Shown piece by piece: positions 1,920 through 63,291 of a stretch of DNA of 64,000 nt. Each line of letters opens with the position of its first letter. The stretch's first letter is position 1. Location of the stretch: assembly GCF_010537335.1 (NCBI RefSeq), contig NZ_AP019711.1:1674001-1738000 (forward strand), written 5' to 3'. The stretch comes from Amedibacterium intestinale. GTDB taxonomy: Bacteria; Bacillota_I; Bacilli_A; Erysipelotrichales; Erysipelotrichaceae. Under the pieces are notes generated by a model. The model was given only the letters and a program-made list of their open reading frames with translations. It was not told where the DNA came from and searched no databases. The translations under genes and the position numbers were made by a program.

Positions 1920-3170
1920 ATGTATCAAAAAAGAAGACAGCGCTTTATGGAAAAACTTCCAGACAACAGTATTGCTTTATTTTTCAGTGGAAAAGCACCC
2001 TATAAAGTAGGTGATGAAAAATATCCTTTTTCTGTTGATCGAAGTTATTACTGGATGACAGGTTTAGATAAAGAAAATATGATATTACTTGTAGGAAATA
2101 TACAGGGAATGACTTATGAATATTTGTTTATAGAACCTTATGATGAAGAACTTGCAAAATGGGTCGGAGGAAGAATACTGCCAGAAGATGCATCGTATAT
2201 TTCTGAAATCGAAGAAATATACGAAGTAGGAGATTTGTGGGATACACTTTCTTCCATCTTTTCACGTATGTTTAACAATATGGAAAAAATCGATGTATAT
2301 GCAGACTTCACAAAACAGGAAGCTTTTCAAGAGGACAGTGAAGCCATTCGTTTTTCAAAAGAACTTTTACAACGTTATCCACATATCAATTTGTTAAATG
2401 TTGCGCCAATAATGGCAGAACTTCGTATGATAAAAGATGAAGACGAAATCAAGAAACTAACTAAAGCAATTTCAATCACTAAAGAAGCGATTGAAAATAT
2501 GATGAAACATGCTCATGGCGGCATTTATGAAAACGAACTGGAAGCTTACTTTGATTTTGTTTTAAAGATGAACCAGTGTGAACACTCTTTCTCTTCTATT
2601 ATTGCTGGTGGAAAAAATGCGACCATTCTGCATTACGACGACAACAACCAGAAAGTAAAAGATCGCTCTTTGGTGCTATGTGATTTAGGCGCCAGCTATC
2701 AATACTTGAATGCAGATATCACAAGAACCTTCCCAGTCAATGGAAAATTCACAAAACGCCAGCGTCAAATCTATGAAATCGTCTTAAAAGGAAATAAGAA
2801 AATCATAGAAATGGTAAAACCAGGACTAACTTTAAAAGATTTAAACAATGCACTGCTTACTTTTTATCAAAAAGAATTAAGTGCAATTGGATTATTAAAA
2901 CATGGAAAACAGATATCTGATTATTACTGGCATGGCGTTTCACACATGTTAGGTTTAGAAACACATGATGTTTCCATAGCTGGTTATAAACTAAAACCTG
3001 GAAATGTTTTCACAATAGAACCTGGACTCTACTTAGAAGACGAAAATATCGGTATTCGTATTGAAGATAATGTACTTGTTACAGAAGATGGCTGTATTAA
3101 CCTAAGTAAAGACATCATCAAAGAACCTGATGAAATCGAAGCCTTTATGTCCCAATTCCAATATAAATAA
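1920..3170 (+). CDS. Aminopeptidase P family (Xaa-Pro) metallopeptidase
   Basis: A cytosolic M24B metallopeptidase that removes an N-terminal residue preceding proline and helps recycle peptides. The 416 residues split into an N-terminal AMP_N-like domain (about 1-170) and a C-terminal pita-bread domain. All five expected metal ligands are present: D255 (LCDLG), D266 (NADIT), H342 (VSHMLGL), E367 (FTIEPG) and E382 (RIEDN). The 11-residue spacing of the two aspartates matches the family. The start is supported by GGAGG seven bases upstream. It is transcribed alone and ends at a strong terminator. Confidence 0.9.
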   Translation: MYQKRRQRFMEKLPDNSIALFFSGKAPYKVGDEKYPFSVDRSYYWMTGLDKENMILLVGNIQGMTYEYLFIEPYDEELAKWVGGRILPEDASYISEIEEIYEVGDLWDTLSSIFSRMFNNMEKIDVYADFTKQEAFQEDSEAIRFSKELLQRYPHINLLNVAPIMAELRMIKDEDEIKKLTKAISITKEAIENMMKHAHGGIYENELEAYFDFVLKMNQCEHSFSSIIAGGKNATILHYDDNNQKVKDRSLVLCDLGASYQYLNADITRTFPVNGKFTKRQRQIYEIVLKGNKKIIEMVKPGLTLKDLNNALLTFYQKELSAIGLLKHGKQISDYYWHGVSHMLGLETHDVSIAGYKLKPGNVFTIEPGLYLEDENIGIRIEDNVLVTEDGCINLSKDIIKEPDEIEAFMSQFQYK

Positions 3171-8652: not shown

Positions 8653-9785
8653 TTACTTCAATAAACATGCTGCTCTTTTATGAATTTCTTTCTCTATCAA
8701 TTTCAATCTTTCATCAGATAGATTATAACGAACATGTCTTTTAAATTTAAAATTCAATAAACGACGAAGTCCTTCTCTATGTTTTCGTGTAAGAACATCT
8801 TTTGCAGTGCCAATAAAGTCATCGTATACACATGGAAGTAAGGTATCCGCATATTCAGATAAGTTTTCCTCTGATTCAAAAACATCTTTCCCTGCAAAAT
8901 TAAACAAAGAGTTTCCATGGTCAAATAATGGTGCAGGAGCTATAATCGTATTCGTTTCATTATCCACAAGAAAGCCAAAATTACCAAAATGGCGATCCGT
9001 ATTGCAAATAAGAGCATCTAGTACAAACATATCATGCAATGCATCTATATACTTATCTCCTAATTTCAGATAATATTCTTCTACCGCCTTCATCCCACCT
9101 GTAGTAATGATTTTCCCAACAGGTATAAAAGAATACTCTTTACTTGTAAATAATTCACAAGTAGAACATAACTCACTTTTCCACATAGATAAACCATATT
9201 TCACTGCATCTATACCAAGAATTTCCGCAATCTGATAAGCATAGTATTCAGAGTATGGTTCATTTCCTGTATTCGATGCACCAAAAGTACCGCCTTTATA
9301 AAGTTGTACTTTTCCTTTTACCCTTCTCCAGCATTTAGGTAGCATCCCGTTTGTGGTAAATTCAGGACTAGAAGCTAAAGAAGTGCGGACACTGCTGCCA
9401 TAACCAGTAAATGCAATTAACGCAAGAATATTACTGAAACGATTATCGTATAAATTATATTTATCAAAAGTTCCCTGAAATCCATCTTCAACAACCCAGT
9501 AACAATCATTCAGTGACAATCCTTTTGATACATCAATAATACGCATGGGACGATTTAGATTTAAAAAACATTTACTCAGAAAGCTATGCACATATGCTCT
9601 ATTTTTAGGTACTATTCTCTTTTTCAGCCATTTTAAAAGACCATCTTCTGTAAGTTTTAAATCCAGTGGTAATAAATACTCGTATGATCATTTATCCATG
9701 TAAGATGTATTTCAGGGATACTACTGTCATTTGTAGAAGAAAATTTTAATAATATTGTATCAAAATGTCTTAATTCATAATTCAT
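8653..9785 (-). pseudogene. HipA-like kinase-domain gene, broken by a single frameshift
   Basis: The long downstream part (to codon MHSF at 9591) carries the HipA C-terminal hallmark ICNTDRHFGNFGFL and APLFDHGNSL, the kinase-like catalytic and metal-binding segments. Upstream, GGGGGTG and an ATG at 9783-9785 start a frame reading MNYELRHFDT, which stops at YYHWI. The same DNA in the next frame reads EYLLPLDLKLTEDGL and runs straight into the long part. A one-base loss near 9681-9683 therefore explains the break. Intact relatives in gut Firmicutes have this N-terminal extension ending in PKNRAYV. HipA kinases can block translation, but these short HipA-domain proteins are not proven toxins. 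Unless recoding or a sequencing error is involved, the gene is inactive. Confidence 0.75.
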
Positions 9786-9966: not shown

Positions 9967-11871
9967 TTATCCTTCTATAAATGTATTTCTAATCTTTTTT
10001 TGAATTTCTTTTATAGTTAGATTTTCATTTAAGAATACTTCTAAATCTTTTTGATTTACCTGCATATTTCTCTTTTCTAAAGCTTTCGTTACGATTTTTT
10101 CTTTATCTTCCTTCGATAATGCAGAAAAATAAAAGACTTCATCACATAAGTCTAGAACCTCTGGTGAAAGATTCCTATCCATACACTTGTCTTTCATAAA
10201 ATCCAAAGTGTTTTGTTTTTCTTCTGTATTCCATTCTAATACAATTAAACAATGTGTTAAATCTGCACATTCTTTTTCCTGCTGTAACTGGTTCGTTTCC
10301 ATGATTTGTCTCAAAAATGAAATCTTCGCAGTACTTGCTTGTTCCATATGCGGAAAATATAAGAGCTGATTTGGATTTCTGCGAAGTTTTTTTATTACAG
10401 AAAGTGTATCTTGTTCGTCCTGGATACTTAAATAATCTTGCTGCTGAAAAAAAGACTGGGCAAAAAGTGTCGCCAGCATATCTTTTCCAGTTCCATCTTC
10501 TCCCACCAGCACCCATAACCCAAGTGGCTGATTTTCCATAGAAACAGATAAAGATCGTGCTTGTTTCAAAATCTGCTGCTTCACTGTATCCTGTCCAACA
10601 AAGCGTTCATCCAGTATATTTTGTAAAGACAGCAATCGATTTTTAAAAGATATGGAAACTCCACTAACTTCTTCTACCACTTTGTTAATCATATCTTCAC
10701 TTATTTCCGATTTTTTTAAGAAACGAGCTTTTACACAAGATAAATCCAATACATCAATCGCTTTGTCCGGAAACTTGCGATTTTTTAAATACATTGCACT
10801 TTTTTCTATCATATATTTCAAAATATCATCAGAAATGTTTACGTCATGATATTCCTCATACTCTTTTTTCTTTTTCTTCAACATCTCTAAAGTTTCCGAT
10901 TCACTTGGCTCTTTCATATAAACAAGCTGAAATCTTCTTTCCAATGCTCGATCACATTCCATATATGTTTCATATTCATCCATTGTTGTTGCGCCAATAC
11001 AACGAAATTTTCCTCTTGCCAGATATGGCTTTAAAACACTGGATACATCAATACTTCCTTCTGATTTTCCTGCACCTATCATCTGATGTATCTCATCAAT
11101 AAATAAAATAACATCTGGATATTTCATCAGTGCATCTAAAACTTTTTGAAGTTTCTCTTCAAAATCTCCACGATACCTTGTTCCTGCCACCAACGTATTT
11201 AAATGCAGTTCATATACACGAGAAGAGGATAACTCTGGCAGCATTTGGTGTTCCAAAAGCCATGCGAAATGTTCCACCAAAGCACTTTTTCCTACACCTG
11301 CATCTCCTACCAGCAAAGGATTTCCTTTATCTTTACGAAGCAATATGGATATCATAAGCTGCAGTTCTTTTTCTCTTCCTGCTATTTGTTTGCCTTTATC
11401 ATCTACTCCTAAACGACGCAATTCCTTAAATTCATCCAATTCGCAATAACCGCTATGTCGCAAAGCAGTTAAAAGCTTTTGACAGTCAATCTCATAACGA
11501 TCAAGCATTTGAGAAGCTACACATTCCTTTGTTCCTAGCAATGCAGATAAAAGACAATCCATATCCATCTCCTCTTCTGCACGCTCCATTGCCATTCGAT
11601 TTCCCTTTTCCAGTATTTCTATAACTGTATCCGAGTATAAAACTTCACCTTCTTTTGATTTCCCACAGCCAAATAAAACAAGCAAATCCTTTTTAATCTT
11701 CTCATAATCAATATGTTCTTTTCTTAATTTATCATATAAAGGATTTTGTGTATCCCATGCAAAAGCAAGCAAAAGATGTTCACTTCCAATATACATATTT
11801 CCCATATCTTTTGCTTCTTGTTGCGCTCTTTCTAGCAGCATCGTTGTTTTATGATCCATTGAAACTTTCAA
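9967..11871 (-). CDS. ClpC-like AAA+ protein with a degenerate second ATPase domain
   Basis: Resembles ClpC/ClpA-type unfoldases but has 634 residues rather than about 810. Residues 1-145 form a Clp N-terminal substrate domain. The first AAA+ domain is intact: Walker A GDAGVGKS (189-196), Walker B ILFIDE (255-260) and arginine finger ERRF (311-314). The coiled middle domain expected after residue 385 is missing. The second AAA+ domain starts normally at VGQD (425-428) with a P-loop GEDGTGKD (457-464), but the pore-loop stretch is absent and Walker B reads LLYFPHMEQ (503-511), lacking the DE pair. It probably does not hydrolyse ATP there, and no IGF-type ClpP-docking loop is apparent. A TTG start at 11871 has GGTG eight bases upstream; the ATG at 11859 is an alternative. 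It has its own terminator and lies next to an IS. Confidence 0.8.
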   Translation of the reverse strand: MKVSMDHKTTMLLERAQQEAKDMGNMYIGSEHLLLAFAWDTQNPLYDKLRKEHIDYEKIKKDLLVLFGCGKSKEGEVLYSDTVIEILEKGNRMAMERAEEEMDMDCLLSALLGTKECVASQMLDRYEIDCQKLLTALRHSGYCELDEFKELRRLGVDDKGKQIAGREKELQLMISILLRKDKGNPLLVGDAGVGKSALVEHFAWLLEHQMLPELSSSRVYELHLNTLVAGTRYRGDFEEKLQKVLDALMKYPDVILFIDEIHQMIGAGKSEGSIDVSSVLKPYLARGKFRCIGATTMDEYETYMECDRALERRFQLVYMKEPSESETLEMLKKKKKEYEEYHDVNISDDILKYMIEKSAMYLKNRKFPDKAIDVLDLSCVKARFLKKSEISEDMINKVVEEVSGVSISFKNRLLSLQNILDERFVGQDTVKQQILKQARSLSVSMENQPLGLWVLVGEDGTGKDMLATLFAQSFFQQQDYLSIQDEQDTLSVIKKLRRNPNQLLYFPHMEQASTAKISFLRQIMETNQLQQEKECADLTHCLIVLEWNTEEKQNTLDFMKDKCMDRNLSPEVLDLCDEVFYFSALSKEDKEKIVTKALEKRNMQVNQKDLEVFLNENLTIKEIQKKIRNTFIEG

Positions 11872-12072
11872 TTATTTCACCATCCATTTCCATATAGTGT
11901 ATGACACATCCTCTAAGTATTTGTAGTATTCCCTGTCTTCTATTTTTAAAACGATTGCTTAAGAATATTACAAAAAAATATATTCCTATTTCTACTCAAC
12001 TTAATAAAACATAATATTAGATGATTTATAAATATAAAAAGAAAGAAGATGATGCTAATAAATACGGTAATC

Positions 12073-12105
12073 TAAAATTACGTGGTGTTTGAAAGGACAA
12101 CACTT
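12073..12105 (+). repeat. Left terminal inverted repeat of the first ISL3-type element
   Basis: TAAAATTACGTG at 12073-12084, then AAAGGACAA about 10 bases on. It matches, in reverse complement, 14532-14565. Confidence 0.7.
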
Positions 12106-12771: not shown

Positions 12772-12889
12772 GATTCCTTTCCTGCCTTCCATTTTGCCTT
12801 CATAATGACACTGTAATGATCATTATAGACTGGAGGTTGATGAAAACATCCATTGTATTTTCAGTTCTTGATGTTTTCTTTTGATTTTT

Positions 12890-14290
12890 ATGAAAAACGA
12901 TACTACTTCTGCGTCCATCAGTGACGACTATATCCTTCATCTCTTTCATCTCCAGAAAGAACAGATAGATTCTTTCCAGGTAAATCATCAGGATGATGGT
13001 GTTCATGTAAGGATCAAGCTTACCCCAAAGACTACTTCATGTCCTGTCTGCGGCTTTCCCACTTCCAAGGTAAAAAGCTATGTACATAAACGCATAACAC
13101 ATTCCATGCTGAATACGGAAGCCTGCTATATCGATTACCAGGCCAGACGCTATATCTGCCCTGCATGTAATAAGACTTTCTATGAGGACAATCCTTTTAC
13201 TTTCAAGGGAATGAAGATCTCTTTATTGACCGTATATAATGTCCTTCGAGATCTGAAAAACCCTGCCGATACATTTAAAAGCGTTGCACAGAGAAATCAT
13301 ATATCCTCTACTTCTGCCATGTCCATCTTTGACAGGCATGTCCAGATATCCAGAAGAAAACTTCCTGAATATCTGAATATCGACGAAGTCTACAGTTTCA
13401 AATCTGAAAACAGTTCCTATGTATGTGTCCTTCTGGATTTCAACTCCCAAAATGTCATCGATCTTCTTCCAGGCAGGAAAAAGTCCGAACTCATCAATTA
13501 CTTTTCTTTCATTCCCCGAGAAGAAAGATGTGCTGTAAAGGCCGTATCTATTGATTTATGGGAAACCTACAGGATCGTCGCAAAGATGATGTTCCCCAAT
13601 GCCGCCATAGCTGCGGATAAATTCCATCTCATCCAGGAACTGAACAGAAGAGTAGACAAGGTGCGTCTGCGTACGATGAATCAGTTAAAGAACTATAAGC
13701 TCATGGATCTGAAAAATGCAGATGCAGCTTCGATAGAAAAAGCTGAAAGAATGCGTAAACAGTATTACCTTTATAAAAAATTCAACTGGCTTCTCTTCAC
13801 AAACGATCCTGCATATACAGATCCAAATAGAGAAAAGAAATATAATAAAGTACTTCAGGGATACTATAACTATAACGATATCCTGCATTATATGTGTTTG
13901 TATAACCCTGAACTTGAAGAAGCCATGAATCTGAAAGACAGGATGATATATTTCTATAAGAACAGTGATCTTGATAATGCAAGAAAAGATATCAATGAAC
14001 TGATCAGTGCTTTCAGGGATTGTAAAGTACCTGAAATATCATCCTTTGCGAATACGATGACCAGATGGAAGACTGAAATAATAAATTCTTTTATCGTCAC
14101 GAATGAACATGGAAGAAAGATAAACAGCGGGATCATAGAAAACAGAAACAGGACGATCAAATGTATCAAGCACAATTCCAATGGATATACCAATTGGAAA
14201 CGATTCCGAAACAGAGTGCTTTATGTACTGAATAAAGATACCACTTATCACTTATACCCTAAGGAAGGAGAAAATGAAAATGAACAATAA
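12890..14290 (+). CDS. ISL3 family transposase
   Basis: A DDE-type transposase of 466 residues. The N-terminal zinc ribbon is visible as CPVCGFPT and CPACNKTF (about residues 45-90), and is followed by an HTH-like region. The RNase-H-like catalytic core has likely acidic residues in NIDEVYSF, in IAADKFHLIQELNRR (the family's DxxH motif) and in IIENRNRTIK, followed by NGYTNWKRFRNR near the C-terminus. The frame is intact over the normal family length, so the element could be active. A TTG at 12881 is an alternative start; no good ribosome site is visible for either. The last 17 bases overlap the next small ORF. Confidence 0.88.
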   Translation: MKNDTTSASISDDYILHLFHLQKEQIDSFQVNHQDDGVHVRIKLTPKTTSCPVCGFPTSKVKSYVHKRITHSMLNTEACYIDYQARRYICPACNKTFYEDNPFTFKGMKISLLTVYNVLRDLKNPADTFKSVAQRNHISSTSAMSIFDRHVQISRRKLPEYLNIDEVYSFKSENSSYVCVLLDFNSQNVIDLLPGRKKSELINYFSFIPREERCAVKAVSIDLWETYRIVAKMMFPNAAIAADKFHLIQELNRRVDKVRLRTMNQLKNYKLMDLKNADAASIEKAERMRKQYYLYKKFNWLLFTNDPAYTDPNREKKYNKVLQGYYNYNDILHYMCLYNPELEEAMNLKDRMIYFYKNSDLDNARKDINELISAFRDCKVPEISSFANTMTRWKTEIINSFIVTNEHGRKINSGIIENRNRTIKCIKHNSNGYTNWKRFRNRVLYVLNKDTTYHLYPKEGENENEQ

Positions 14291-14531: not shown

Positions 14532-14565
14532 TTGTCCTTTGTTAGTTTTACCACACGTAATTTTA
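14532..14565 (-). repeat. Right terminal inverted repeat of the first ISL3-type element
   Basis: TTGTCCTTT at 14532-14540 and CACGTAATTTTA at 14554-14565, reverse complement of the left end blocks. Confidence 0.7.
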
Positions 14566-14587
14566 CAAAGCCATAAATACTATGCAT

Positions 14588-33202: not shown

Positions 33203-35209
33203 TTATTCTTCAGAATGTTTTGTTAATTCTTTTAAAGCATCATCAAAACTTTTTTCAACTTCTGCTTTTTCTTTTGTTTCCTTAACAGTTTCTTCTTCTG
33301 CTACTTTTGCTTCCTCTGCATTTTGAATGTTTTCGACATTGCTGTCTTCATTCTGTTCTTCTTGTTTCTTTATTTCTTCAGGAGAATGAATGCTTCCATA
33401 TTCAACAAGGTTATTGATCTGTTCACTTGTAATTGTTTCTTCTTCAATTAATGTTTCCGCAATTAATGTTAACAAATCTTTATTGCCCTCGATAATTTCT
33501 TTCGCTTTATCATAACATTCATTAATGATTTTACGAATTTCTTTATCGATTTCATAAGCAATTTCACCAGAATAATTACTTCCGCTGCTGTAATCTCTTC
33601 CTAAGAATACATTTCCACTGCCATCATCATACTGAATTGGCCCCAGTGATGACATACCCCAGCTTCGAACCATAGCTTTGGCAATTTTAGTAGCTTTTTG
33701 AATATCATTACTTGCACCAGCAGATATTTCATTGAACATAACATCTTCCGCAACACGTCCACCCATAAGCCCAGTAATCTGTGCCATGAAATCTGCTTTT
33801 GTTGGGAACATCTTTTCTTCCTGTGGAGTCATTAGGTTATATCCACCAGCCTGTCCACGAGGAATAATCGTTACTTTTTCTACTTTATCTGCATCTTTCA
33901 ATTTTAAACCGATAACAGCATGTCCTGCTTCATGATACGCAACAAGACGTTTTTCCTGTTCTGTATATTTCTTTGATTTTTTTGCCGGCCCCATCATAAC
34001 ACGGTCAATAGCTTCATCAAGATCAGCCATCGTAATTACTTTACGTTTATCACGAACTGCTAGAATAGCCCCTTCGTTCAATACGTTTTCCAAATCCGCA
34101 CCTGAGAAACCTGGTGTACGTTTTGCCAGATTTTCCAAACTGATTTCACTAGAAAGTTTTTTATTTCTTGCATGTACTTTTAAAATTTCATAACGTCCTT
34201 TTTTATCAGGAAGATTTACGGTAATCTGACGATCAAATCGTCCGCTACGAAGAAGTGCAGGGTCTAATACATCTGGACGGTTAGTAGCCGCAATAATAAC
34301 GATACCTTTGTTTTCTTCCATACCATCCATTTCAACAAGCATCTGATTCAATGTTTGTTCACGTTCATCATTTCCACCGCCCATACCAGCTCCACGCTGT
34401 CTACCAACGGCATCGATTTCATCAATAAATACGATACATGGTGCTGTCTGTTTGGCTTTTTTAAACATATCACGCACACGACTTGCCCCTGTACCTACAA
34501 ACATTTCCACAAAGTCAGAACCACTGATGGAGAAAAATGGAACATCCGCTTCCCCAGCTACTGCTTTTGCAAGTAATGTTTTTCCGGTACCTGGAGGCCC
34601 TACCATTAACATTCCCTTAGGAATACGAGCACCCATGTCCGTAAAACGTTTAGGATCTTTCAAATAGTCAATAATTTCTTTAACTTCTTCTTTTTCCTCA
34701 TCACATCCGGCTACATCTTTAAAACGAACTTTGATGTTTCCTTCAATTTTTGCTCTTGATTTACTAAATTCGAAGGCTTTGTTGCTTCCCCCTGCATTCA
34801 TTTTAGAGAAAAGGAAAATAGCAACTCCACCTAACAATAGAAACGGCAGGAAATTTTTCAGGAACATCTCCATGAAAGTTTCCCTGTTTGCATCCAGTAC
34901 TTCTACTTTCGTATTTTTGTTTTTCGCAAAAATATCACTTAGCCACTGAATATTTTCATCTGTCTTTGGAACAGATACTGTAAAGTTTTCAAGTTTTCCA
35001 TTGTTCTCATATGTTCCAACGATATTAACAACCGTAGTTCCTACAGACATCCTAACATCTTTGAACTCCATCTTCTCTGCACTAGCAGAAAATTCGTTAT
35101 AATTGAAAACTTTTGTAGCATTTCCGTTTCCAAACGTAACCAGAAGCAGCAAAATCGAAATAACCAGAATATAAGGCAGAAAATTAATTACCTTTTTGTT
35201 GTTATTCAT
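33203..35209 (-). CDS. ftsH: ATP-dependent zinc metalloprotease FtsH
   Basis: A membrane-anchored AAA+ protease that degrades misfolded membrane and regulatory proteins. The 668 residues show two N-terminal helices (about 8-27 and 113-131) around an extracytoplasmic domain, then the AAA domain with [23 protein letters not shown] and the SRH region LRSGRFDR. The peptidase zinc motif is HEAGH. A charged, glutamate-rich tail (about 620-668) is longer than the core needs. It follows hpt by 32 bases on the same strand, in the tilS-hpt-ftsH order typical of Firmicutes. Confidence 0.97.
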
Positions 35210-57831: not shown

Positions 57832-58719
57832 CTATAATTCTTCATCTAAACCGCCCAAAAGTTCTAATAAACGATTTAAATCATCATTTCCATTATATGC
57901 AATACTGATATGTTTTGCATCAACTTTTACCTTTGTCTGAAAACGTGTCTGTAAACGTTTTTCTACCTGTCCCAAATGAATATCTTTTGGTTTAGTTTCA
58001 GGTTTTTCTTTTGGCTCATTGATATTTTTTACCATTGTTTCTACAGCACGTACACTAAGATGTAACTGAATAGCTTTTTGTGCTACTTCTTCCATCAGTT
58101 TTTCATCTTTTAACCCTAACAAGGCACGTACATGCCCCATACTTAATTCTTGATTTACAACATGTGTTTGTACGACTGGTGGAAGTTTTAACAAACGAAG
58201 CATATTCGCTACATACTCACGAGATTTTCCAATTCTTTTTGCCAGTTCTTCCTGTGTATAACCTAATTTTTTTATTAGTTTTTCATAACCAACAGCTTCC
58301 TCAATTGCATTTAAATCTTCACGCTGTACATTCTCCAGCAATGCAATTTCCATCATTTGCTGATCATCAAAATCCATTAGAATTGCTGGAATCTTTTTCA
58401 ATCCTGCTTCTTTACTTGCACGAAGACGTCTTTCCCCAGCAATTAATTCATATCCTTTTACTGCTTTTTTTACAAGAATAGGTGTAAATACCCCATGTAA
58501 ACGAATAGAATCTGCTAATTCTTTTATTTTACCCTCATCAAATGTTTTTCTTGGCTGATATGGATTTGGGTGTACATCTTTTACATCTACTTCAAACTTA
58601 CTATCTTCATGAACTTCTGTTTTCCCTTGCTGAATATCTTCCAGCACATTGGTTACATCTTCTCCAAAAATAGCTGATAAACCTTTTCCAAGTCTTGCAG
58701 CGCTTTCCTTTTTTGCCAC
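57832..58719 (-). CDS. parB: Chromosome partitioning protein ParB (Spo0J)
   Basis: ParB is a CTP-dependent clamp that loads at parS sites and organises the origin region. The 295 residues have an N-terminal ParA-activating stretch (KKESAARLGKGLSAIFGED), the CTP/ParB motif GERRLRASKE (about 105-114), the HTH (TQEELAKRIGKSREYVANMLRL) and a C-terminal dimerisation domain. The frame opens at 58728, but AGGAGG directly precedes that codon. The GTG at 58719 is eight bases downstream and is the better start. It follows parA by 15 bases. Confidence 0.95.
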   Translation of the reverse strand: MAKKESAARLGKGLSAIFGEDVTNVLEDIQQGKTEVHEDSKFEVDVKDVHPNPYQPRKTFDEGKIKELADSIRLHGVFTPILVKKAVKGYELIAGERRLRASKEAGLKKIPAILMDFDDQQMMEIALLENVQREDLNAIEEAVGYEKLIKKLGYTQEELAKRIGKSREYVANMLRLLKLPPVVQTHVVNQELSMGHVRALLGLKDEKLMEEVAQKAIQLHLSVRAVETMVKNINEPKEKPETKPKDIHLGQVEKRLQTRFQTKVKVDAKHISIAYNGNDDLNRLLELLGGLDEEL

Positions 58720-58734
58720 AACATACACCTCCTA

Positions 58735-59514
58735 CTATGCCTTTTTCTTTTTGTTCATACGAACAACTTCTTTTGCCAGACTGGCATATGCTTTTGCTCC
58801 CTCACAGCGAACATCATATTCAAATATAGACTGTCCTCTGGAAGGTGCTTCTCCCAATTTAATATTTCTTGGTATGTACGTTTTATATACACGATCTTTA
58901 AAATGCTGACGAACTTCCTGCTGTACTTCTACACTTAAACGTGTACGAGCATCATACATTGTTAACAATACACCTTCAATAACCAAATTTTTATTGAATA
59001 ATTGCTGAACAAGACGAATCGTTAACAACAACTGCGTAACCCCTTCTAAGGCATAATATTCACATTGTACAGGAATAATAACAGAATCCGCTGCCGTTAA
59101 GGCATTCGTATTCAATAAACTTAAAGAAGGTGGACAATCAATAATAATGAAATCATATTCATCTTTTACCTGATCCAATTTGTTTTTTAATAATTCTTCT
59201 TTTCCTACTTCAAATCTTACCATCTGCAAATCTGCACCTGCTAAAGAAATGTTTGCAGGTACAATATCAATTGGTGGAGAAGTCAAGGTTTTACGAATAT
59301 CTGCTACTGTATAATCTTCCATCAACAAATTATAAACAGATAATTTATCTTCTCCAACACTTGCTCCGATTCCCTGTGTTGCATTCCCCTGCGGATCTAA
59401 ATCCACAAGCAATACTTTATTATTCAAATATCCTAAACCAGCCGCAAGGTTTAAGGATGTCGTTGTTTTTCCGACACCGCCTTTCTGATTTGAAATGGCA
59501 ATTATTTTTCCCAT
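58735..59514 (-). CDS. parA: Chromosome partitioning ATPase ParA (Soj)
   Basis: A 259-residue deviant Walker ATPase that acts with ParB to move the origin region and to tune DnaA. The deviant Walker A is KGGVGKTTT (about 11-19), Walker A' VDLDPQGNATQG and Walker B FIIIDCPPSLSLL. The order rsmG-noc-parA-parB is that of Firmicutes near oriC. It follows noc by 14 bases. Confidence 0.97.
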   Translation of the reverse strand: MGKIIAISNQKGGVGKTTTSLNLAAGLGYLNNKVLLVDLDPQGNATQGIGASVGEDKLSVYNLLMEDYTVADIRKTLTSPPIDIVPANISLAGADLQMVRFEVGKEELLKNKLDQVKDEYDFIIIDCPPSLSLLNTNALTAADSVIIPVQCEYYALEGVTQLLLTIRLVQQLFNKNLVIEGVLLTMYDARTRLSVEVQQEVRQHFKDRVYKTYIPRNIKLGEAPSRGQSIFEYDVRCEGAKAYASLAKEVVRMNKKKKA

Positions 59515-59528
59515 ACTATCCTACCTCT

Positions 59529-60293
59529 CTATTTCGGAATACGAATTGTTAGAATAACTTCATCTTCTGTTTCATCCTGTGTTATTTTCGCATCGCATCC
59601 ACTGCGATTTACCATATTTACTGCCTGATGCAGTGTATTAATAGCTATTTTTATACTTTTGCTGATCCCTTTCAGCATCACTTTCTTTTCTGGTTTTTTT
59701 TCTTGTGATTCCTGTTTCAATACTCTTTCTGTCTGTGCAACCGTCCATCCCTTTTTGACGATTTTATGTAACATTTCCTGCTGTTTATCTTCTTTTAATC
59801 CAACAAGTGCACGTGCATGGCGCTCGCTGATTTTCTTAGCAGAAACAGCTTCCTGTACTTCTTTATCCAAACCTAGCAAACGAATCTTATTTGCTATAGC
59901 ACTTTGTGACTTTCCAATACGCAAAGCCAATGTACTTTGATTGATACCGGCAAATTTCATGATTTCCACATAAGATTTTGCCTCTTCAATTGCGCTTAGA
60001 TTTTCACGCTGAATATTTTCTACCAATGCCATTTCCGCCATCTGTATTTCGTTGGCATCCATGACATTTGCCAATACTTCAACTGCACCATTTAAACGCA
60101 TAGCACGAAATCTTCTCTCTCCTGCTATGATTTGATATTTCCCATTGCTTTCTCGAACTGTAATTGGCTGAATCAATCCATTTTCACGAATAGACTGTGC
60201 TAGATCCATCAACGCATCATCATCAAATTCTAAACGTGGCTGATATGGATTAGGTTCAATCAAGTCAATCGCAATCATCTTCGTTTCTTTCAT
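59529..60293 (-). CDS. noc: Nucleoid occlusion protein Noc (ParB-like)
   Basis: A ParB paralogue of 254 residues. The motif GERRFRAMR (about 61-69) gives CTP binding, followed by VENIQRENLSAIEEA and an HTH with NQSTLALRIGKSQSAIANKIRLL. In Firmicutes the ParB-like gene between rsmG and parA is Noc, which keeps the division septum off the nucleoid. The assignment rests on position. The N-terminal amphipathic peptide of Bacillus Noc is very short here (MKETKMIAIDL), so membrane binding is less certain. Confidence 0.85.
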   Translation of the reverse strand: MKETKMIAIDLIEPNPYQPRLEFDDDALMDLAQSIRENGLIQPITVRESNGKYQIIAGERRFRAMRLNGAVEVLANVMDANEIQMAEMALVENIQRENLSAIEEAKSYVEIMKFAGINQSTLALRIGKSQSAIANKIRLLGLDKEVQEAVSAKKISERHARALVGLKEDKQQEMLHKIVKKGWTVAQTERVLKQESQEKKPEKKVMLKGISKSIKIAINTLHQAVNMVNRSGCDAKITQDETEDEVILTIRIPK

Positions 60294-60314
60294 TTTCTAA
60301 CTCCTCATATCAAT

Positions 60315-61025
60315 TTAAAGTGGATTCTTTTTGATCTGAGCAAATGCCCTTGGATACTTCTTTGGTGTTGGTTTTATTTTCTCAAATACAAAATTAACTC
60401 TGCAGGAACCATCCGATAAGTGTTTTTCATCTCTTTGTTTTTCTTTACAACCTAAAAGTGAAATAGCTTTTTTAGCTTTATCATATTCTTCCTGTGCATT
60501 TGCCCCTTTTAAAGATAAAAAGATTCCCCCTATCTTTACTAAAGGAATACACAATTCAGAAAGCATCGTTAAGTTAGCAACTGCTCTGGCACTTACAATG
60601 TCAAAGTACTCTCTATGATCTTTCGCATATTCTTCTGCACGTGCATGAACACACTCTACATCTTTTAATTCCAGTTTTTCACACAATGCATTTAAAAACG
60701 TTATTCGTTTCCCCAAAGTTTCCACGATCGTAATCTTTAAATCCGGATATACGATTTTTAATGGAATACTTGGAAATCCAGCTCCTGCTCCCACATCACA
60801 AAAACTTCCTTTAAGAGGAACATCGAAGGAAGGCAATATCGAATCTAAAAAATGTTTTTCATAGATTTCATCCAAATCTGTAATAGCAGTAAGATTCATT
60901 TTCTGATTCCACTCTACAAGCATTTGTGCATATACTTCAAACTGTTCAATTTGCCTGTTTGATAAAACGATTCCATGCTTTTCCAAAATTGAAAAGAAAT
61001 CTTCTTTTTTAAATTTTATAGACAT
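60315..61025 (-). CDS. rsmG: 16S rRNA (guanine(527)-N(7))-methyltransferase RsmG (GidB)
   Basis: Methylates G527 of 16S rRNA with SAM. The 236 residues are of normal length. The SAM-binding motif I is FCDVGAGAGFPSIPLK (about 76-91), and later EYFDIVSARAVANL contains the DIVSARA segment typical of RsmG. It is the first gene of the rsmG-noc-parA-parB run; the usual upstream neighbour mnmG is missing, and an ISL3-type element begins 75 bases upstream. Confidence 0.96.
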   Translation of the reverse strand: MSIKFKKEDFFSILEKHGIVLSNRQIEQFEVYAQMLVEWNQKMNLTAITDLDEIYEKHFLDSILPSFDVPLKGSFCDVGAGAGFPSIPLKIVYPDLKITIVETLGKRITFLNALCEKLELKDVECVHARAEEYAKDHREYFDIVSARAVANLTMLSELCIPLVKIGGIFLSLKGANAQEEYDKAKKAISLLGCKEKQRDEKHLSDGSCRVNFVFEKIKPTPKKYPRAFAQIKKNPL

Positions 61026-61845: not shown

Positions 61846-63291
61846 ATGCAAGACTTTACCAATTGCGAAGCTTCTATTTGCACAATCTTCAATCTGGATT
61901 CATCGATTTTAGAATCCTGTTCCTGTATTAGACGAAATGAACAGACGATCATCGATGTAAAGCTTTTGGATTCTCGACCAGCTTGTCCTGAATGTGGAAA
62001 TCCCATCACGAAGATCAAGGGATATGTGACCAAGACCATCCAGCATTCATTACTGGCCGATAAAAAATGTGTTCTTCAATACCATGCCAGGCGATATATC
62101 TGCCCAATATGCCACAAAACGTTCTATGAATACAATCCTTTCGTCTTCCAGAACATGAAGATTTCTTCAGATCTGATGCTTCAGATCCTCAAGGACTTGC
62201 AAGAACCTGGCGAAACCTTTACCCACGCAGCTAAGAGATATCATATTTCTCCAACTTCTGTTTCATCGATCTTCGATTCGGTTGTTTCGATTCCAAGGGC
62301 AAAACTGCCAGAAATCATGTGCACAGATGAAAACTATGCCTTTCATTCCAAAACACAAAACAGTAAGTACATCTGTCTTTTGATCGATCAGACCAATGGG
62401 CGGCCAATCGATATCTTGCCTAGTCGACGATATGAATATTTGGATAAGTACTTCTCAAATATACCAAAATATGAAATAGATCAGGTCCATATCATGATTA
62501 CGGATATGTACGAACCATACCGCAGGATCATTAAAAAACATTTCAAAAATGCGATTCATGTGGTCGACCATTATCATGTTTCACAGGAACTGCACCGCAG
62601 AGTGGACAGGGTTCGCTTAAGGATCATGAACCCCCTGCGATGCATCAACACATCGAAACGCACCCAGGAACAAGAAGAAAACTATTATCTGTTAAAACAC
62701 AAGAACGGACTCCTGTTCAAGCACTTTACAAGATCTAAAGGCGCCGATGGAAAACCACTTTTCGATATTTTAAGACCAAAAGAATATAATAAGGTTCTAA
62801 AACGATATATGAACCCATACGATTATGCCAATGCGCTTGTATCTATTCATCCGGATATAAACACGGCCTGGGAATTAAAGGATGAACTTACGGATTTCTA
62901 TGTCTCGAACACACTTGAAACGGCACCTGCTGCTTTGAAAAAAGTCATTACCGATTTCAGAGAAAGCAATGTAGAAGAAATGGTCAAGTTTAGTTACACA
63001 TTAGCCAACTGGCAAACCGAGATCATCAATTCTTTCTACATAGCCAAAACCGAATACAAGCTCTCGAGAAAGACAGGACAAATCACTGTCGGATATAAAA
63101 GGCTCAACAACGCACTGATGGAACGACTCAACGGAACCGTCAAGCTGATTACCAAGGCAGCCAACGGATATACCAATTGGGAACGATTCCGTAACCGATG
63201 CATGTTGGTCCTTGAAAAAGGCATAGAATTTGCGATCGACGAGAAAGACAAAAGCGTAAAGATGGTCGAAAAAAAGGAGCCCACCACCTAG
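61846..63291 (+). CDS. ISL3 family transposase
   Basis: A 481-residue DDE transposase, clearly related to the one at 12890 but far from identical. The zinc ribbon is CPECGNPIT with CPICHKTFYEYNPF (about 45-95). The catalytic core shows MCTDENYAFH, HVVDHYHVSQELHRRVDRVR (the family DxxH region) and ALMERLNGTVK, followed by NGYTNWERFRNR. AGGAGGTG lies eight bases before the ATG, a much better ribosome site than in the first element. The frame is intact. Confidence 0.9.
   Translation: MQDFTNCEASICTIFNLDSSILESCSCIRRNEQTIIDVKLLDSRPACPECGNPITKIKGYVTKTIQHSLLADKKCVLQYHARRYICPICHKTFYEYNPFVFQNMKISSDLMLQILKDLQEPGETFTHAAKRYHISPTSVSSIFDSVVSIPRAKLPEIMCTDENYAFHSKTQNSKYICLLIDQTNGRPIDILPSRRYEYLDKYFSNIPKYEIDQVHIMITDMYEPYRRIIKKHFKNAIHVVDHYHVSQELHRRVDRVRLRIMNPLRCINTSKRTQEQEENYYLLKHKNGLLFKHFTRSKGADGKPLFDILRPKEYNKVLKRYMNPYDYANALVSIHPDINTAWELKDELTDFYVSNTLETAPAALKKVITDFRESNVEEMVKFSYTLANWQTEIINSFYIAKTEYKLSRKTGQITVGYKRLNNALMERLNGTVKLITKAANGYTNWERFRNRCMLVLEKGIEFAIDEKDKSVKMVEKKEPTT

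Follow-up and report, generated by a model that had tools for sequence, protein, structure and literature searches.

A short ClpC with a complete first and a motif-dead second AAA+ domain in Amedibacterium intestinale and its relatives

The clpC locus

The window, that is, the whole stretch of 64,000 nucleotides of the Amedibacterium intestinale genome analyzed here, carries on its minus strand a clpC-like gene (9967–11871, stop included) which begins with TTG and specifies a protein of 634 amino acids. The short clpC genes of its relatives begin at the same position, mostly with ATG, and have ribosome-binding sites resembling that of the window gene. An aminopeptidase P gene (2001–3167) is common to the window and the clpC loci of three relatives, and a gene reading by eye as ssb occurs in seven of 18 relatives' loci. 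In Bacillus subtilis clpC sits in a cluster also containing ispD. While an ispD did not turn up in 18 kb surrounding the window gene, one lies near the gene in 13 of the 18 relatives' loci (one cluster member was read as IspD by Pfam), a conserved place which makes it unlikely that this is an accessory gene, as an earlier note on this DNA had suggested. We take the window gene to be the clpC gene of this lineage.

Upstream of clpC lies an ISL3-type element with a transposase gene identified through Pfam (12881–14290) and possible end repeats at 12056–12084 and 14554–14582, about 185 bases before the start of clpC. A further ORF (61846–63291) reads like a second ISL3-type transposase. The supposed HipA-like pseudogene corresponds to an ORF of 312 amino acids (8653–9591) whose HipA_C match of 24.4 bits falls below the Pfam cut-off of 30.5. 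From their translations 33203–35209 reads as ftsH and 57832–61025 as parB, parA, noc and rsmG, and because of these genes the locus may be near the replication origin. No CIRCE box was found in the window, and CtsR-like boxes numbered five against 8.6 expected, none of them near clpC.

Protein architecture

The protein consists of an N-terminal Clp_N region (residues 1–145; 11437–11871), a first AAA+ domain with its lid (D1, residues 146–405; 10657–11436) and a second AAA+ domain (D2, residues 406–634; 9970–10656), all on the minus strand. Pfam finds Clp_N as a single stretch at residues 16–63 [1.8e-10, PF02861], and the region is helical in the predicted structure. D1 possesses every motor motif, including the Walker A sequence GDAGVGKS (189–196), the pore loop GTRYRG (230–235; RYR, of the KYR-type class), the Walker B sequence ILFIDEIH (255–262) and the arginine pair in ALERRF (309–314). 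It is complete, as in class I Hsp100 proteins of the ClpC/ClpA type.

The top sequence match in the PDB is B. subtilis ClpC [1.1e-83]. All three NCBIfam matches lie far under their curated cut-offs: ClpA [TIGR02639, 343.8 bits, cut-off 993.15], ClpB [TIGR03346, 316.6 bits, cut-off 1232.1] and, in third place, TssH. There is no middle domain, nor is there one in any short relative, including those with an intact D2, and for that reason we do not regard its absence as part of the decay of D2.

An AlphaFold2 model (mean pLDDT 84) was built from 44 sequences which were mostly canonical and could pull it toward the canonical fold; in this model D2 takes the AAA+ fold. Residues 143–633 align with ClpC and ClpA chains as two stacked AAA+ domains. 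The closest structure is Staphylococcus aureus ClpC [9rai_a; VIA-align Z 31.3, rmsd 13.1, 593 aligned], followed by Mycobacterium tuberculosis ClpC1 [Z 31.2, rmsd 4.7, 472 aligned] and ClpA [Z 30.8, rmsd 3.6, 473 aligned].

State of the second AAA+ domain

D2 retains its P-loop, GEDGTGKD, at residues 457–464 (10480–10503), with Lys463 in place. The Walker B position, located by alignment, is occupied by LLYFPHMEQA (503–512; 10336–10365), in which Pro and His replace Asp and Glu; the acidic residue closest to it, Glu510, falls two alignment columns past the catalytic Glu. The domain has also lost the GYVG pore loop, by deletion, and sensor 2, and Leu occupies the arginine-finger column within SPEVLDLCDEV (alignment position; 10135–10167). 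By motif, then, the window ClpC is to be read as missing a complete, hydrolysing D2, even though the fold is predicted to be kept. The earlier description of a ClpC-like protein with an intact D1, a dead D2 and no middle domain, in which D2 keeps the P-loop and has lost the Walker B acidic pair and the pore-loop stretch, is borne out by these motifs, and the arginine finger and sensor 2 can be added to the losses.

The same truncated form was proposed to be sought in related genomes. It was found in 30 of the 272 genomes of the Erysipelotrichaceae-like family f1 (E below 1e-150), distributed over 16 of 59 genera (counted by hand), and D2 is dead in all 30 copies, which indicates that its state is neither chance nor an assembly slip. 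Residues were counted in the 28 dead copies from genomes with ClpP (25 of f1 and three of the sister family f2), the five f1 copies without ClpP being excluded. The D1 residues scored are kept in 28/28. In D2 the pore Tyr, the Walker B Asp and the arginine finger are each found in 0/28, and the Walker B Glu, the sensor-1 Asn and the sensor-2 Arg each in 1/28; the Walker A Lys is kept in 24/28. The column of the catalytic Glu (window residue 508) is Asn in 23 of the 28 copies and His in the window protein, and an Asn at this column may matter for the holding of nucleotide. We infer from the sequences that a retained P-loop Lys, combined with Asn in place of the catalytic Glu, would be consistent with a domain which holds nucleotide without hydrolysis.

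Probable repeated death of D2

In the sister family f2 a short ClpC occurs in 32 of 43 genomes. Among the 28 copies with a scorable D2, 25 are intact and three, all of genus g46, are dead (G049, G051 and G056); G057, G302 and G306 (partial contigs) and G311 (a truncated frame whose D2 our script had called dead) were left out. The three dead copies share their genus with the intact copies of G059 and G303, and on a tree of the N-domain and D1, made by a quick method and with long branches present, they form one supported branch. Since dead copies occur in f1 and on a separate f2 branch, an intact ancestor would imply two or more separate deaths of D2. Class-wide, 19 of 346 sampled genomes match at 1e-130, seven of them from three other families, where D2 is drifting (f19, f8) or intact (f24). 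One genome without ClpC contains a 623-codon frame weakly matching the window protein [G004:C306:6373-7695; 4e-23, 22% identity].

Between closely related copies, strong purifying selection acts on the dead D2. Six pairs of closely related dead copies had dS values under 1.3, and for these the dN/dS of D2 was 0.020, 0.028, 0.021, 0.071, 0.088 and 0.069, and that of D1, in the same order, 0.007, 0.031, 0.040, 0.041, 0.057 and 0.060; pairs in which dS was saturated or undefined were excluded. Four pairs with an intact D2 gave 0.090 to 0.143, and the dead domains are not above these. The window ClpC itself has no relative close enough for such a comparison, its genus mate being 41% identical.

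Other Clp components and co-occurrence with ClpP

The genome to which the window belongs is a single contig of 2.49 Mb, 98% complete. No second ClpC, ClpA or ClpE was found in it, nor was the full-length clpC for which the earlier note proposed a check; the only other Hsp100 is ClpB, a separate frame of 861 codons whose D2 is, by eye, without an hGF tip. An AAA_2 search of this genome returned ClpB strongly and other proteins weakly [1e-8 and worse]. ClpX was not found in this genome, and in 0 of the 272 family genomes was it over the cut-off, a single sub-threshold match occurring in G178; among 60 relatives it is present in two, both from one f2 genus. The gene for a canonical ClpP, carrying the Ser-His-Asp triad, lies at C1:1488223. 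On this evidence no candidate ClpP partner other than the window ClpC was found in the genome. A second, divergent ClpP-like protein (L035; G000:C1:514923-515426, in a frame of 269 codons) is also present, and many family genomes that lack ClpC have weak ClpP matches resembling it.

We counted as canonical ClpP all matches at 1e-67 or better, together with the split gene of G241, this cut-off being set after viewing the list. On this definition 25 of the 272 family genomes have both ClpC and ClpP, five ClpC only (G020, G138, G238, G239 and G240, all with D1 kept), two ClpP only (G177 and G216) and 240 neither (Fisher p 3e-28, uncorrected for kinship). With the ClpP cut-off loosened to 1e-40 there are 12 more genomes that have ClpP and lack ClpC (p 1e-20), and with it at 1e-15 there are 28 more (p 2e-15). 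Counted by hand at the level of genera, the corresponding figures are 14, 2, 1 and 42 (p 1e-10). For the 60 relatives they are 23, 1, 1 and 35, or 23, 1, 11 and 25 (p 2e-7) when every ClpP match is counted.

The putative ClpP-docking loop

At the place of the ClpP-docking tip the window protein has TLDF (555–558; 10198–10209), in which the Leu and Phe of [LIV]GF are kept and the Gly is not; LDF does not match the canonical [LIV]-G-[FL]. The AlphaFold2 model places the tip in a loop of low confidence that follows the sensor-1 strand and precedes the next helix, as in ClpC and ClpA. Of the 28 dead copies from genomes with ClpP, 25 have the tip Phe, the other three having Gln, Leu and Tyr, and 14 have the Gly, leaving half without it. 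Though it sits inside a loop of variable length, the Phe column ranks fourth of 204 D2 columns by conservation (similarity-weighted, effective 19). In G001, of the window's own genus, the tip is LLQ.

Before the last genome search we had predicted in writing that canonical ClpP would be found in six genomes whose tip is hGF and be missing from five f19 genomes whose tip is not, G588 being left open. ClpP is present in all twelve, so that the f19 part of the prediction failed (5/5 have ClpP). Loss of the Gly does not, therefore, imply loss of ClpP, and the hGF tip is no strict marker for ClpP. Four of the five f19 copies have Phe in the tip column though the canonical tip is lost. In consequence, what ties the loop to ClpP is the Phe, together with a single clean loss, rather than the full tripeptide: in genus g69, which has ClpC and no ClpP, the docking loop is deleted in 3/3 genomes. 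The tip Phe remains (RLF) in G020, which has ClpC yet no ClpP, and in G138 (86% complete, no ClpP found) the tip is LRF, as in sister genomes. When the alignment was viewed by eye, no clear pattern of co-variation between the ClpP pocket and the two tip types was seen.

The short ClpC proteins of f19 (L250, L251, L252, L253 and L255) have a D2 in which the pore loop and Walker B motif are drifting and Walker A, the arginine finger and sensor 2 are kept. Being without the tip Gly despite the presence of ClpP, they are nearly a mirror image of the window case.

Proposed function

This is a real, conserved and probably functional one-motor ClpC, whose docking to ClpP we infer from sequence. In the reading which we prefer, with a probability of about 0.6, D1 would pull and D2 would be a static collar for docking on ClpP. 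The N-domains and D1 of a hexamer would grip the substrate, D1 alone would pull it with ATP, and the chain would thread through a widened, passive D2 ring devoid of pore loops. D2 would dock on ClpP through its Leu-x-Phe loops, perhaps with nucleotide in the remaining P-loop. Such a one-motor ClpC should cope less well with stable substrates than with those that are unfolded or only loosely folded. We hold evenly balanced the wider proposal that it would form the family's only ATP-dependent ClpP protease, working on one ring, with D1 as the whole engine and D2 as a non-hydrolysing, possibly nucleotide-holding collar, and that this arrangement would have arisen independently in the sister family, the docking loop being lost after the loss of ClpP in g69. 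Against the collar stand the noncanonical LDF tip, the failed f19 prediction, the tip Phe of G020 without ClpP, and the fact that D2 is the principal motor in ClpA. The co-occurrence of ClpC and ClpP could also reflect joint loss of a pathway whose members have no direct contact.

In a rather unlikely alternative, the protein is a ClpP-independent chaperone or disaggregase; D1 would remodel substrates, D2 would hold the hexamer together, and ClpP would have been co-lost as part of one stress-response package. Five of the 30 ClpC-bearing family genomes do lack ClpP while D1 is kept, and the noncanonical tip of the window protein would suit such a role. On the other hand 25 of the 27 family genomes with canonical ClpP have ClpC and, with ClpX absent, ClpP would have no feeder; nor would one expect the tip Phe to be kept in 25/28 copies and the loop to be deleted in the ClpP-less g69. 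We also think it improbable that the gene is in decay, with D2 heading for loss and having no present function. That both clpC and clpP are missing from 240 of 272 family genomes at strict cut-offs, and that D2 is shortened further in g69, g20, g21 and g31, would agree with decay, but the dN/dS of the dead D2 (0.020–0.088) is not above that of the intact one, and no frame is interrupted save that of G142, which is cut by the end of its contig. The proposal of the earlier note that the protein is a scaffold or regulator of a true ClpC draws on the dead D2; it is very improbable, there being no other ClpC, ClpA or ClpE for it to serve in a one-contig, 98% complete genome, and D1 being complete. 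That it is not a normal ClpP partner holds insofar as the motifs exclude two-motor operation; it is nevertheless the sole candidate partner found, and it tracks ClpP.

If the one-motor reading is true then, with ClpX lacking, these bacteria depend for Clp proteolysis on the ring that in ClpA counts as the weaker motor, and the short-ClpC lineage shows stages toward the loss of Clp proteolysis. Work-sharing between the rings of ClpA and ClpC has so far been studied with point mutants; here evolution would have produced the one-ring form two or more times, and the intact copies of G059 and G303 beside the dead ones of G049, G051 and G056 in one genus provide natural controls. We found no description of a naturally occurring ClpC whose second ring is dead in the titles and abstract openings of the open-licence literature. 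Nor did that literature yield a paper on Erysipelotrich ClpC as an AAA+ protein, or on ClpP and ClpC in the Erysipelotrichaceae.

Comparison with known systems

The window protein has its N-domain, D1 and D2 in the same order and with the same fold as the ClpC proteins of S. aureus and B. subtilis and M. tuberculosis ClpC1. Unlike them it is without a middle domain and without the Walker B motif, pore loop, arginine finger and sensor 2 of D2, and its tip is LDF rather than hGF. Escherichia coli ClpA, the top NCBIfam match, also has no middle domain. The passages of PMC9663308 consulted describe D2 of ClpA as the principal motor and D1 as weaker, an auxiliary or back-up motor which can hold the polypeptide while the D2 loops are tucked away; in the window protein, by contrast, it is D2 that is dead by motif. 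The short ClpC proteins of the sister family (about 630–700 amino acids) have the same layout without a middle domain and differ in that their D2 is mostly intact.

Another close system is Chlamydia ClpC E644A, an engineered D2 Walker B mutant in which D1 is the sole hydrolysing ring. In the part of PMC10128030 drawn on here, Chlamydia ClpC with NBD2 dead is reported to have about 70% of its ATPase left and unaltered chaperone activity, and B. subtilis ClpC is cited as taking most of its ATPase from NBD2. Chlamydia ClpC E644A is a laboratory point mutant, whereas the window D2 has also lost its pore loop, arginine finger and sensor 2, and by evolution. For S. aureus ClpC with both Walker B motifs dead, the relevant portion of PMC12521514 states that the ClpC-ClpP complex still forms and that its map is the same as that of the wild type. 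It is because of these published results on ClpA D1, on the NBD2-dead Chlamydia protein and on the S. aureus Walker B mutant that a one-motor mechanism appears possible for the window ClpC.
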